DNA of 64,000 nucleotides, taken from contig NZ_CP152413.1 of the NCBI RefSeq assembly GCF_038967635.1, forward strand, positions 6,266,001-6,330,000. The letters are read 5' to 3'. The stretch's first letter is position 1, and every line of letters starts with the position of its first letter. This stretch comes from Bradyrhizobium sp. B124 (GTDB taxonomy: Bacteria; Pseudomonadota; Alphaproteobacteria; Rhizobiales; Xanthobacteraceae). Below the pieces are notes generated by a model. That model had not been told where the DNA came from. It did not search any database and saw nothing but the letters and a program-made list of their open reading frames with translations. Shown in pieces: positions 33,110 to 43,398 of the stretch. Made by a program: the position numbers and the translations under genes.

Positions 33110-34342
33110 TCAGTTTCCGGCGACTTCGCCGCTGATGACGTCGCCGAACAACTGCCAGCGCTCGCCTTTGAACTGCATCAGCTGCAATTGCTCGATCGGC
33201 TGGAAGTCGGCAGGACCGGTCGACAGCGTCACGCCGGGCAGCAGGCCGCCCTGCGCAAACTGCTTCAGGCTCGCCGCCTGCTTCATCACATTGGCGCGGG
33301 TGAGGTCGTCGCCGCAGCGGCGCAGCACCTCGACCATCGTGGTCGCCATATTGTAGCCCGTCATCGCCGAGGCATCGACGCGGTTGGTGTCGGGCATGTA
33401 CTTGGCGAGCAGTTCGTCGAACGCCTTCATGCCGGCGTCGTCCTTCCACTGCGGGTCGCTGGCGTCCTTGGCGTAGGCCGCCGAGATCACGCCCTGCGCA
33501 TTGTCGAGCCCGGCGGGACGCATCACCGTCGCGGTGGAGGCCGAGACGTTGGAGACGATGGTCACCGGCTTCCAGTTCATCTCACCGAGCTTCTTGATCG
33601 CCTGGGCGCCGAATTTCGGCGTGGTGAAGAAGATGATGACGTCGGGGTTGGCGGATTTCAGCCGCACCACATGGGAATCGATGGTGGGCTCGGCAACTTC
33701 GTAACTCTCCTTGGCGGCGATCCGCGCCGGATCGCTGGCGAAGCCGTCTTCCAGGCCCTTGAGGTAATCCTTGCCCATGTCGTCGTTCTGGTAGAGCACC
33801 GCGACTTTGGCGGCGGGCTTCTCCTTGAGCAGATATTTCGCGTAGATCCGCGACTCGCTCTGGTAGCTCGGCAGCCAGCCCATGGTCCACGGGAACGCTT
33901 TCGGATCGTTCCACTTGGTCGCGCCGGTGGCGACGAACAGCTGCGGCACCTTCTTGGCGTTGAGGTATTTCTGGATCGCGGTGTTGGAGGCGGTGCCGAG
34001 CGTGCCGAACAGGAACAGCACCTCGTCGCTCTCGACCAGCTTGCGCGCCTGCTCGACCGCCTTCGGCGGCGAATAGGCGTCGTCATAGGAGATGAAATTG
34101 ATCTTGCGGCCGTTGATGCCGCCATCGTCGTTGACCTTCTTGAACACCGCCGCCATCGCCTTGCCGACCACGCCATAGGCCGACGCCGGACCGCTATAGG
34201 GCACGATGTTGCCGATCTTGATCTCGGTATCGGTTGCACCGGTGTCGTATTTCTTCTGCGCCCATGCGGCATTGCAGCTCGCGGCGGCGACGGCGAGGCC
34301 GAGCAGGGCGGTTGCGACACGGTGACGGATCGGCTTCGGCAT
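33110..34342 (-). CDS. ABC solute-binding protein, Liv type (array member 1)
   Basis: A periplasmic type I binding protein of 410 aa. The signal peptide ends near AAWAQ; the mature part starts KKYDTGATDTEIKIGNIVPY, as in the other four array members. Shared landmarks: GGINGRKINFISYDDAYSPP, VPQLFVATGATKWNDPK, KVAVLYQNDDMGKDYLKGLE, VMRPAGLDNAQGVISAAYAK and MKQAASLKQF. It differs from the others in F-L-F-G-T-L-G-T-A-S (pocket region near residue 110) and in having no terminator after it; glycerate kinase follows by 21 bp. The N-terminus has a Cys (AAASCNAAWA) in a weak lipobox-like position. Ligand unknown. Confidence 0.92.
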   Translation of the reverse strand: MPKPIRHRVATALLGLAVAAASCNAAWAQKKYDTGATDTEIKIGNIVPYSGPASAYGVVGKAMAAVFKKVNDDGGINGRKINFISYDDAYSPPKAVEQARKLVESDEVLFLFGTLGTASNTAIQKYLNAKKVPQLFVATGATKWNDPKAFPWTMGWLPSYQSESRIYAKYLLKEKPAAKVAVLYQNDDMGKDYLKGLEDGFASDPARIAAKESYEVAEPTIDSHVVRLKSANPDVIIFFTTPKFGAQAIKKLGEMNWKPVTIVSNVSASTATVMRPAGLDNAQGVISAAYAKDASDPQWKDDAGMKAFDELLAKYMPDTNRVDASAMTGYNMATTMVEVLRRCGDDLTRANVMKQAASLKQFAQGGLLPGVTLSTGPADFQPIEQLQLMQFKGERWQLFGDVISGEVAGN

Positions 34343-34471
34343 TTCCCGAAAACTCCTTGTTGTTGCCGGCGCGCTGGGGGGCCGGGTTCTCTTCGGTTGT
34401 TGCCGGTTTTCCTAGCGCATTGCCGGGCAAAGTGTAAGCAGGCATTGCCCCGGGCCGGTCGCCCCATGATG

Positions 34472-34506
34472 AATGAAAAGCCCCCTGCGACGGTATCGCA
34501 GGGGGC
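34472..34506 (-). terminator. Intrinsic terminator after array member 2
   Basis: On the minus strand GCCCCCTGCGA and TCGCAGGGGGC form an 11-bp perfect stem with a 5-base loop, followed by TTTTCATTC. It ends the gene at 34534-35760. Confidence 0.85.
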
Positions 34507-34533
34507 CATTGTCGGTCGATTGTCGGCAGGAAA

Positions 34534-40999: not shown

Positions 41000-41878
41000 T
41001 CAAACTCGCTTGACGATGGCGCGGCCGAACAGGCCTGCCGGTTTAACGACCAGGACGACGATGATCAGCGCGAGCGCGATCGGAAGTTTCAGTTCATTGC
41101 CGACGCCGGGGATGTAGGTGCCGACGAGGTTCTCGAAGATGCCGACCAGGAAACCGCCCATCACGGCGCCGAACGGCGAGGTCAGGCCGCCGAGCACGGC
41201 TGCGGCGAATCCGTAGATCAGCACGCCGAGCATCATGTTCGGCTCGAGGAACACCACCGGCGCGATCATCATGCCGGCGATCGAGCCGATCGCAGACGCC
41301 ATGCCCCAGCCCAGCGCGATCATCCAGGAGGTATTGATGCCGACCAGCCGGGCCGATTCAGGCAGCGAGGCGGCCGCCCGCATCGCAAGGCCGACCCGGG
41401 TGAAGCGGAAGAAGAAGAACAGCAGCGCCAGCATCAGCAGCGTGATGCCGATCATGCCGGCCTGGTGGGTCGAGATCAGCTGGCTGCCGAGGAACGGCGA
41501 GGAGCCGAACGGCGTCGGATACTGCTTGATGGTGAAGTCCCAGATCAGGCCGGCGACCGAGTTGATGATCGCATACAGCGCGATGAAGCCGGCGACATTG
41601 GTCAGGATCGGGGCCTTGGCCAGCGGCTTGAACAGCAGCCGCTCGATGACGATGCCGGCGGCAAACGAAAACGCGACGGTGAGCACGAAGGCGCCCCAAT
41701 ATGGCACACCCCATTGCATCAGCTGCCAGGACACGAAGGTCGAGAACATCGCCATTTCGCCCTGGGCAAAATTCAGGTGGTCGATGGCCTGGTAGATCAT
41801 CACGACCGCGAGCGCCATGCAGGCATAGATCGCGCCCGTGGCGATGCCGGCCAGGACCTGGTTGGCAAAAAGCTCCAT
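41000..41878 (-). CDS. ABC transporter permease, LivH type
   Basis: A Liv-type permease of 292 aa with about 8 helices. The near N-terminal IDHLNFAQGEMAMFSTFVSW carries the family motif N-F-A-Q-G-E; RVGLAMRAAASLPESARLVG is the ATPase-contact loop; AAVLGGLTSPFGAVMGGFLV lies in the second half. 12 bp separate it from the ATPase upstream. Partner of the LivM-type subunit downstream, forming one heterodimeric pore for the five binding proteins. Confidence 0.93.
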   Translation of the reverse strand: MELFANQVLAGIATGAIYACMALAVVMIYQAIDHLNFAQGEMAMFSTFVSWQLMQWGVPYWGAFVLTVAFSFAAGIVIERLLFKPLAKAPILTNVAGFIALYAIINSVAGLIWDFTIKQYPTPFGSSPFLGSQLISTHQAGMIGITLLMLALLFFFFRFTRVGLAMRAAASLPESARLVGINTSWMIALGWGMASAIGSIAGMMIAPVVFLEPNMMLGVLIYGFAAAVLGGLTSPFGAVMGGFLVGIFENLVGTYIPGVGNELKLPIALALIIVVLVVKPAGLFGRAIVKRV

Positions 41879-41890
41879 TGTGCCAGCTCC

Positions 41891-42604
41891 TCAGTAGCCG
41901 AGATAGGATTTGCGGACGTCTTCGTTGTTCGCGATGTCCTTGGCATTGCCCGACATCACGATCCGTCCGGTTTCGATCACATAGGCCTGGTCGGCGAGCT
42001 CGAGCGCGAGCTGCGCGTTCTGCTCGACCACCAGGATGGTCACCTTTTCCTCGCGATTGATCTTGCCGAGGATGCGGAACAGGTCGCGTACGATCAGCGG
42101 CGCGAGGCCGAATGACGGCTCGTCGAGCAGCATCAGGCGCGGCCGCAGCATCAGCGCGCGCGCCACCGCGAGCATCTGCTGCTCGCCGCCCGACAGCGTG
42201 CCGGCCTGCTGGGTGTAGCGCTGCTTCAGCACCGGGAAATGTTCGTACATCCGCTCGATGTCGGCGCCGATGGCGTTCTTGTCGGAACGGCTGATGGCGC
42301 CGAGCTGCAGATTTTCCTCCACCGTCATGTTGGTGAAGGTGCCGCGGCCCTGCGGCACATGGGCGATGCCGAGGCGGACCACGTTCTCGGTGGAACGGGT
42401 GCCGATCGGCTTGCCCTCGAACTCGATCGCGCCGGTTGAACGCACCATGTTGCAGATCGCCCGCAGCGTGGTGGTCTTGCCGGCGCCGTTGGCGCCGAGC
42501 AGGGTGGTCAGCGAACCCTCGTTGAGCGAGAAGCTGAGGCCGTGCAGGGCCTGGACCTGGCCGTAATAGGCGCGCAGGTCCTTGACGTTGAGCATCGCGG
42601 TCAT
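41891..42604 (-). CDS. ABC transporter ATP-binding protein, LivF type
   Basis: An ABC ATPase of 237 aa. Walker A LLGANGAGKTTTLRAI, signature LSGGEQQMLAVARALMLRPR, Walker B LMLLDEPSFGLAPLIV, H-loop region TILVVEQNAQLAL. It ends DVRKSYLGY, as LivF proteins do. The start overlaps the LivG-type stop by 4 bp. Confidence 0.93.
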   Translation of the reverse strand: MTAMLNVKDLRAYYGQVQALHGLSFSLNEGSLTTLLGANGAGKTTTLRAICNMVRSTGAIEFEGKPIGTRSTENVVRLGIAHVPQGRGTFTNMTVEENLQLGAISRSDKNAIGADIERMYEHFPVLKQRYTQQAGTLSGGEQQMLAVARALMLRPRLMLLDEPSFGLAPLIVRDLFRILGKINREEKVTILVVEQNAQLALELADQAYVIETGRIVMSGNAKDIANNEDVRKSYLGY

Positions 42605-43398
42605 TGGTCCTTGCTCCCCAGATAGGCCTTGATGACGTCGGGGTCGGCCTGGACCTGGGCCGGCGTGCCTTCGGCCAGCTTGCGGCCGAAATTGAGCGCG
42701 ACGACGTGGTCGGCGATCGACATCACGAGACCCATGTGATGTTCGACCAGCAACACCGTAATTTTACGGTCATCGCGGATTTTGCGGATCAAATCGCCGA
42801 GCACATAGACTTCCTCGTGATTGAGGCCGCCGGCCGGCTCGTCGAGCAGCAGGATCTTCGGATCCGCGGCCAGGGCGCGCGCCAGCTCGACGCGCTTCTG
42901 GGTGCCGAACGGAAGTCCCGAGACCACGGTGTGGGCGACGTCCTCGAGATCCAGATAACCGAGGATGTCGTGCACCTTCTTGTTCATGTCGTGCTCGCCG
43001 CGGCGAACCCAGGCGAGACGCAGCGAGTCGCTGACGATGTCGCTCGAGGTGCGGGCATGCGCGCCGACGCGCACATTGTCGATCACGGACAGATTGGGAA
43101 ACAGCGCGACGTTCTGGAAGGTGCGGCCGATGCCGATCTCGGCAATCCGGTGCGGCGGCCGCGACAGGATGCTCTTGCCTTCCATCAGGATGTCGCCGGA
43201 CGACGGCTGGTAGAGCCGCGACAGGCAATTGAACAGCGTCGTCTTGCCGGCGCCGTTCGGTCCGATCAGGCCGAGGATCTGCCCATGGCGCATGTCGAAC
43301 GACACGCCATTCAGTGCAATGATGCCGCCGAACACGACGCTGACGTCGCGAACCGCGAGCAGGGGATCGTTCCCCTGCGCGAGCTGTGCCTGCGTCAT
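42601..43398 (-). CDS. ABC transporter ATP-binding protein, LivG type
   Basis: An ABC ATPase of 265 aa, first gene of the transporter operon. Walker A LIGPNGAGKTTLFNCL, signature region SGLPFGTQKRVELARALAAD, Walker B ILLLDEPAGGLNHEEV, and TVLLVEHHMGLVMSIADHV. The signature reads LPFGTQ instead of LSGGQ, as is common in LivG proteins. C-terminus DPDVIKAYLGSKDQ. The IclR gene lies 69 bp upstream in the same direction and may be co-transcribed with it. Confidence 0.93.
   Translation of the reverse strand: MTQAQLAQGNDPLLAVRDVSVVFGGIIALNGVSFDMRHGQILGLIGPNGAGKTTLFNCLSRLYQPSSGDILMEGKSILSRPPHRIAEIGIGRTFQNVALFPNLSVIDNVRVGAHARTSSDIVSDSLRLAWVRRGEHDMNKKVHDILGYLDLEDVAHTVVSGLPFGTQKRVELARALAADPKILLLDEPAGGLNHEEVYVLGDLIRKIRDDRKITVLLVEHHMGLVMSIADHVVALNFGRKLAEGTPAQVQADPDVIKAYLGSKDQ

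Follow-up and report, generated by a model that had tools for sequence, protein, structure and literature searches.

A tandem array of five divergent solute-binding proteins beside a single Liv-type pump and a pim operon in Bradyrhizobium sp. B124

Results

Gene organization of the array

In a 64,000 nt stretch of the Bradyrhizobium sp. B124 genome (contig NZ_CP152413.1, positions 6,266,001 to 6,330,000; hereafter the window, to whose numbering all coordinates refer), five genes encoding solute-binding proteins (SBPs), here called S1 to S5, are located head to tail next to the genes of one Liv-type ATP-binding cassette (ABC) importer. The source genome is a single contig of 9.17 Mb. Read in the direction of transcription, the order on the minus strand is IclR, LivG, LivF, LivH, LivM, S5, S4, S3, S2, S1 and a glycerate-2-kinase-like gene, and a pim operon (pimF-like gene, PimA, PimC, PimD) is transcribed divergently from the pump and the array (Table 1).

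The original prediction, which described five complete paralogues of about 408-410 aa beside two permeases and two ATPases, was confirmed by the open reading frames (ORFs) and by a Pfam search, in which S1-S5 each matched Peripla_BP_6 with 178-207 bits against a cut-off of 31.7 (the ends of S4 and S5 used here were a few bases off the final coordinates) and the two permeases and two ATPases were likewise above their cut-offs. At E <= 0.001, S1-S5 matched only Peripla_BP_6, ANF_receptor and Peripla_BP_5, and thus no TctC-type (Bug/TctC) family. All five genes are intact, their products share 62.7-72.3% pairwise identity, and 186 of the 411 alignment columns are invariant. The K-K-Y-D-x-G motif predicted near the mature start is present in all five, and the differing pocket segments, variants of F-[GN]-x-[LV]-G, were found in the S1-S5 alignment as quoted in that prediction.

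Table 1 Features of the array, the LivHMGF pump and the pim operon in window coordinates
Feature	Position	Strand	Remarks
Glycerate-2-kinase-like gene	31805..33088	-	After S1 without terminator; best match NF041176, 183 bits, below the cut-off of 550
S1, SBP, 410 aa	33110..34342	-	Peripla_BP_6; ends 21 nt before the kinase-like gene
Terminator-like hairpin and T run after S2	34479..34507	-	Kept in 14/14 loci
S2, SBP, 408 aa	34534..35760	-	Peripla_BP_6; probable RPA3725 orthologue
Terminator-like hairpin after S3	35868..35894	-	Scan lists + strand only; - strand reads GC-rich stem and TTTTC; kept in 14/14 loci
S3, SBP, 409 aa	35920..37149	-	Peripla_BP_6
Terminator-like hairpin after S4	37259..37283	-	Weaker T run; kept in 14/14 loci
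S4, SBP, 408 aa	37377..38603	-	Longest ORF begins farther upstream; least conserved within its own group
Terminator-like hairpin and T run after S5	38669..38696	-	Kept in 14/14 loci
S5, SBP, 409 aa	38722..39951	-	Starts 29 nt after LivM; probable RPA3724 orthologue
LivM-type permease	39981..41003	-	BPD_transp_2; genome's only close copy
LivH-type permease	41000..41878	-	BPD_transp_2
LivF-type ATPase	41891..42604	-	ABC_tran
LivG-type ATPase	42601..43398	-	ABC_tran and BCA_ABC_TP_C
IclR-family regulator	43468..44334	-	
pimF-like enoyl-CoA hydratase / 3-hydroxyacyl-CoA dehydrogenase	44505..46601	+	FadB/FadJ-like, below curated cut-offs; named from its position beside PimA
PimA, dicarboxylate-CoA ligase	46758..48446	+	TIGR03205, 1083 bits, cut-off 705.6
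PimC, pimeloyl-CoA dehydrogenase large subunit	48610..49821	+	TIGR03204, 871.5 bits, cut-off 623.85
PimD, pimeloyl-CoA dehydrogenase small subunit	49974..51119	+	TIGR03203, 778.3 bits, cut-off 652.7

Transcription units of the array

The intergenic gaps measure 29 nt (LivM-S5), 118 nt (S5-S4), 227 nt (S4-S3), 159 nt (S3-S2), 191 nt (S2-S1) and 21 nt (S1 to the next gene). Because S5 starts so close to LivM, it probably shares the pump transcript. Sites with a hairpin and a T run follow S5, S4, S3 and S2 in all 14 loci with a single copy of every member from S1 to S5, and no such site was found in the 170 nt after S1 in any of the same 14 loci; mononucleotide-shuffled gaps, which served as control, contained a match in 2-10%. 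The hairpins described from the single sequence, with a weaker one after the fourth member, are therefore confirmed as terminator-like sites and conserved, and they support the view that the members can be expressed separately, as separable transcription units; gaps of 118-227 nt lie upstream of S4-S1.

The units may each possess a promoter of their own, although a scan for the sigma-70-type promoter consensus found 0 sites with 2.6 expected, other promoter types lying outside this consensus. The motif GGTATT-SAATRCC (<=2 mismatches) matched five times in the window against 1.65 expected, a number that five of 100 shuffles also reached. Four of these matches represent two sites, each counted once per strand, which lie in the gaps preceding S4 and S3. 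When 16 sequences were aligned for each gap, the listed part of the alignments showed the motif mostly retained ahead of S4 and lost ahead of S3 in several relatives. It was rejected as evidence for an operator shared by the SBP genes, and we read it as part of a promoter.

The pim operon and the R. palustris orthologues

PimA, PimC and PimD were called with the NCBI curated cut-offs, which all three exceed. No pimB-sized ORF is present between pimA and pimC (48446-48610), where there is no space for a thiolase. The operon order here is F-A-C-D, followed by a short-chain dehydrogenase/reductase (SDR) gene (51249-52022), and differs from the order in the name pimFABCDE. Because the pump diverges from pimA, pimC and pimD, medium- and long-chain dicarboxylic and fatty acids are its most likely cargo. 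A Foldseek search with the S5 model returned as best match 4n03, the SBP of a fatty-acid ABC transporter.

A related cluster was published in 2011 for Rhodopseudomonas palustris, in which three SBPs, RPA3723-RPA3725, lie beside pimFABCDE, and RPA3724 and RPA3723 were reported to bind fatty and dicarboxylic acids with differing profiles that follow the substrate preference of PimA (Giuliani et al. 2011, PMC3223731). We compared this cluster with a genome of our set (G199) that encodes a perfect match (100% identity, 357 aa aligned) to RPA1789 of R. palustris CGA009 and that carries the orthologous pump and SBPs in conserved order. Two of its three array SBPs were placed in the S5 and S2 clades of our tree, and the array SBP identities of 69.9% and 58.0% compare with the printed values of 71% and 60% (PMC3223731). 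Judged by gene order, identities and tree, S5 is probably the orthologue of RPA3724 and S2 that of RPA3725. The counterpart of RPA3723 sits in a neighbouring clade outside S1-S5, and counterparts of S1, S3 and S4 were not found in the Rhodopseudomonas loci fetched (L142, L143).

Array size and age of the duplications

Using LivM as query, we assembled the loci of the best 80 of 223 relatives, 65 of which are closed by the kinase-like gene and 15 are not. Among the 65 closed loci, two intact SBPs were counted in 11, three in 21, four in 16 and five in 14; three further closed loci hold a fragmented copy, one of them (L005) being a five-member array with a frameshifted S5. Six SBPs in a row occur in two genomes of another genus (L135, L136). 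The uniqueness implied by the earlier statement that no described case has five in a row is hence not supported; the array varies in size, and five members are one of its states rather than a singularity. The order S5-S4-S3-S2-S1 is mostly kept across the 80 loci (the labels denote best matches, not orthology). Two S3-like copies are present in 17 of the 80 loci, and those included in the tree (L021, L034, L036, L068) fall within the S3 clade.

The SBP tree comprises 133 sequences, each with an alignment of at least about 360 residues, and its deep nodes are weak. With support of 0.996, 0.992 and 0.998, the S1, S2 and S5 groups each draw members from two or more genera, while S3 (0.971) and S4 (0.932, twelve sequences) were seen only in the Bradyrhizobium-like LivM-based loci and a second Bradyrhizobium-genus genome (G138). 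Mean identity within the groups, with 15 sequences each, is 92.3% for S1, 94.5% for S2, 90.1% for S3, 86.9% for S4 and 94.6% for S5. The phylogeny that had been proposed for dating the duplications thus resolves S1-S5 as old separate lineages, three of them reaching across genera; from the alignments and the tree we judge the duplications to be old and the copies to have been kept distinct. A recent tandem duplication or an assembly artefact was ruled out, since the members are only 63-72% identical and are orthologous across species.

Some loci deviate from this pattern. Frameshifts break up S5 in two draft genomes (L005, 10021-12277; L048, 6767-8082), which could be sequencing error or decay. 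In genome G155, LivM of the six-SBP locus (L136) is apparently split over two overlapping ORFs, and a second pump set with three more SBPs (L137) lies 0.57 Mb away. A more distant genus (G218, L149) has its own pump, 50-59% identical, with three tandem SBPs, likely a sister system.

Dispersed paralogues of the SBP subfamily

Twenty-nine SBPs of the subfamily are encoded in the B124 genome (E <= 6e-112; identity to S3 45-100%), and the next match of full-length type drops to 29% identity. A LivM above 39% identity occurs only once. Twenty-four of the 29 lie outside the array, in 23 loci (L081-L103), and no LivH or LivM match (E <= 1e-5, ORFs of at least 100 aa) was found in the 9.5-13.5 kb around them. 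A LivM-like match within 10 kb was present for none of the 24 dispersed SBPs and for 28 of 35 other Liv-type SBPs (Fisher p = 1.2e-10; distances taken between start coordinates, a 41-residue relic excluded from the 65 matches). Within 6 kb, the corresponding counts are 0/25 versus 16/19 in G138 and 0/10 versus 11/12 in G199 (R. palustris), so that many SBP genes of the subfamily without adjacent membrane genes and few permeases, a many-to-one ratio of SBPs to pump, characterize these two genomes as well. The excluded relic, with an in-frame stop and of the same subfamily, is located at G000:C1:4422401-4422523, and its surroundings (L104) contain no LivH or LivM match.

Among the 138 neighbour ORFs of the dispersed SBPs were matches to AMP-binding (4), adh_short (5), Acyl-CoA_dh_1 (3) and ECH_1 (2), and the same families appeared at most once each among 119 control ORFs (first 25 of 126 families listed, down to one member). 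This enrichment of acyl-CoA genes, obtained with rough gene calls, is no more than suggestive.

We further asked in 248 genomes of the family how the two components co-occur (LivM at E <= 1e-90, best 8 candidates per genome; SBP at E <= 1e-95, best 7 candidates per genome). LivM was found in 102 genomes, once in each except G095 (two copies; G155 also has the broken copy in its array locus), and the SBP in 117; both were present in 102 genomes, the SBP only in 15, LivM only in none and neither in 131. In 24 genomes scored with up to 76 candidates each, the number of SBPs ranged from 2 to 30 among the 20 that were LivM-positive, with LivM counted once in each.

In the Rhodopseudomonas genus group, the 4.1 Mb genomes G089 and G190 each show only two subfamily SBPs among the best 7 candidates per genome, and in G089 (L142) both adjoin the pump, as if the dispersed ones had been lost. 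For comparison, about 50 SBPs instead of about 120 have been reported for strain DSM127 (PMC12016538), whose genome is given as 4.0 Mb (PMC12366326).

The CouPSTU-like neighbour cluster and displaced arrays

Beyond S1 and the kinase-like gene, at 22504-31751, a cluster encodes an SBP, LivF, a fused permease-ATPase (28237-30006), LivH, a MarR regulator, an acyl-CoA synthetase, an SDR and a thioesterase-like gene. Its SBP (26282-27433) matches the R. palustris p-coumarate-binding structures 3tx6, 4f8j and 4jb0 (E ~1e-193), and we call the cluster CouPSTU-like, after the p-coumarate-type importer CouPSTU (RPA1789 and RPA1791-1793). Of 11 loci inspected, 8 have CouPSTU-like genes next to the array or to the kinase-like gene that ends it: pump genes in seven (L002, L036, L058, L135, L136, L138, L141) and the MarR gene only in L140.

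Array and pump are not always neighbours. Genome G066 has five SBPs and the kinase-like gene at 1.93 Mb and the LivHMGF pump with two SBPs at 5.03 Mb, 3.1 Mb apart. In G199, by contrast, the array adjoins LivHMGF (4.1 Mb), and RPA1789 is found at 1.9 Mb. For G026, G088, G107 and G124, LivM is placed on another contig than the best S2 match, which in draft assemblies does not prove distance.

Discussion

From its position and its relatives, the array is likely the receptor part of a dicarboxylate/fatty-acid importer that supplies the pim pathway. Five anciently duplicated and separately conserved periplasmic receptors would catch different but chemically related carboxylates, most likely dicarboxylic and fatty acids of medium and long chain length, for example breakdown products of cutin and suberin, and would pass them to the single LivHMGF pump, on which all five are predicted to dock. 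The divergently transcribed pim enzymes would then attach CoA to the imported acids and beta-oxidise them. S4, S3 and S2 would be expressed as separate units, each ended by a terminator, followed by S1 and then the kinase-like gene. The expectation that several divergent receptors share one adjacent pump is thereby supported, and of the ligand classes originally suggested, dicarboxylates are favoured by the pim operon and the R. palustris ligand data, while aromatic compounds are not indicated for this pump. Beyond the array, some or all of the 24 dispersed paralogues would probably use LivHMGF in trans. That one pump works with many dispersed receptors is plausible; the complete hub-and-spoke arrangement, in which a single LivHMGF pump would work with about 29 dedicated receptors, five local and 24 scattered, several of these by other catabolic genes, we put forward tentatively, at somewhat short of an even chance, the docking of the dispersed SBPs being a prediction.

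Several observations weigh against this picture. In the published assays no ligand was bound by RPA3725, to which S2 is probably orthologous, and the authors of the ligand screen themselves name non-specific lipid binding as a possible interpretation (PMC3223731); because of the result for RPA3725, not every array member need bind fatty or dicarboxylic acids. In a 2026 model study, rpa3725 ranks within the top twenty genes for growth on products of lignin breakdown (PMC12844201). A second Liv-type pump, the CouPSTU-like one, begins about 2 kb past S1. Its counterpart in G066 (LivH 84%, fused LivMG 83%, LivF 82%) adjoins the displaced array, which is therefore not remote from every Liv pump, and this weakens its use as proof of action in trans. 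The B124 genome contains 40 additional weaker LivM/LivH-like matches, an ABC-ATPase-like ORF is present in 4 of the 23 dispersed-SBP loci (L084, L085, L095, L098), and dispersed SBPs near a LivM-like match grow in number with distance, from 1/24 within 12 kb to 3/24 within 15 kb; within 10 kb they number 2/25 in G138 and 1/10 in G199. The 15 genomes with SBPs but without LivM at E <= 1e-90 also belong here. At E <= 1e-50, seven of them have a full or partial LivM of 48-52% identity, G004 has two fragments, G214 has a 41% match and six have none; all six, like G214, are draft assemblies (280-800 contigs, 77-92% completeness). Finally, the co-occurrence counts are not phylogenetically independent and refer to this one subfamily.

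Among the alternatives, it is possible, if on the doubtful side, that some of the receptors, chiefly the dispersed ones, act as sensors, take part in regulation or work with other Liv pumps, so that only the array members feed LivHMGF. Because most Bug proteins of Ralstonia eutropha are encoded near regulators, a role in regulation has been proposed for them (PMC5812351), and AraC-type (3) and LysR-type (2) regulators are among the neighbour ORFs of our dispersed SBPs; the 40 other LivM/LivH-like matches also speak for this alternative. Yet other Liv-type SBPs usually have a LivM-like gene nearby, and the subfamily co-occurs with the LivM of this particular pump. A second alternative concerns the array itself: the five receptors could bind much the same ligands and merely raise or condition-tune the receptor amount. 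The cleft motifs are indeed largely kept in the five (GT at 114-115, G-A-[TS] at 138-140), and the positions of the mature part that are constant in every group (>=95%) and yet differ between groups number only 16. However, the variable positions include 111-113 in a putative ligand loop; we presume that 111-113 and 136-140 lie in the ligand cleft, as placed by alignment to LBP and by the ligand contacts of LBP. The divergence of the members into separate clades, three of which cross genera, and the differing profiles of RPA3723 and RPA3724 (PMC3223731) likewise speak against dosage, which we regard as unlikely.

Still less probable is that the array serves two pumps, its own and the CouPSTU-like neighbour, or mainly the latter in some genomes. 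The recurrent position of the CouPSTU-like cluster after the array or the kinase-like gene would fit this, as would L138, in which the array stays with that cluster and away from its own pump; but two SBPs remain with LivHMGF in the same genome (L139), the CouPSTU-like pump has an SBP of its own, and in G199 the array is far from RPA1789 although RPA3723 and RPA3724 bind fatty and dicarboxylic acids (PMC3223731). An ordinary branched-chain amino-acid importer with extra copies is very improbable, considering the head-to-head arrangement of the pump with the pim genes, the ligands reported for the orthologues (PMC3223731) and the only remote match of S3 to solved amino-acid-binding proteins (best PDB match 59 bits).

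If the hub-and-spoke reading is true, a catabolic cluster gains uptake by carrying a receptor gene alone, and with about 29 receptors at one pump the substrate range evolves through receptor addition alone, as an ABC counterpart of the Bug expansion. Ligand prediction should then begin with the catabolic neighbourhood of the receptor, and the long-standing question of orphan SBPs becomes testable by a single gene deletion (livM). Where close relatives of these SBPs carry a name, it is mostly "ABC transporter substrate-binding protein" or "branched-chain amino acid transport system substrate-binding protein", either of which hides the likely ligands.

None of the papers listed in our literature searches, which covered subscription journals thinly, showed a genome-wide SBP:pump ratio of this kind or longer arrays, as judged by the listings and the opening parts of abstracts. 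The interpretation of the array is largely right, though a multi-SBP, pim-linked cluster has been known since 2011. That R. palustris cluster has the same pump, the same pim neighbour, orthologous SBPs and several SBPs per pump, but three SBPs instead of five. The CouPSTU-type importer is also Liv-type and a neighbour of the array in the window, but has a single SBP, a fused permease-ATPase and aromatic ligands. In the Opp system of Borrelia burgdorferi, five divergent receptors, partly grouped (OppA1-3, BB0328-330) and partly dispersed (OppA4 and OppA5), share one main pump, the primary OppBC permease with OppDF, under differing conditions of use; it is, however, a peptide transporter of another ABC class, with three receptors together and two elsewhere and a second "orphan" permease (PMC7822543). 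The Bug/TctC expansion of Bordetella and relatives, as described, likewise combines tens of receptors with few membrane partners, the orphans often lying by catabolic genes, but its transporter is a tripartite tricarboxylate (TTT) secondary transporter with another SBP family (PMC5812351), whereas the pump described here is a Liv-type ABC importer. Several receptors per pump thus has precedents in Borrelia Opp, the Bug receptors and the orphan SBPs of R. palustris, and the novelty of the present system lies in scale and class, not in principle.

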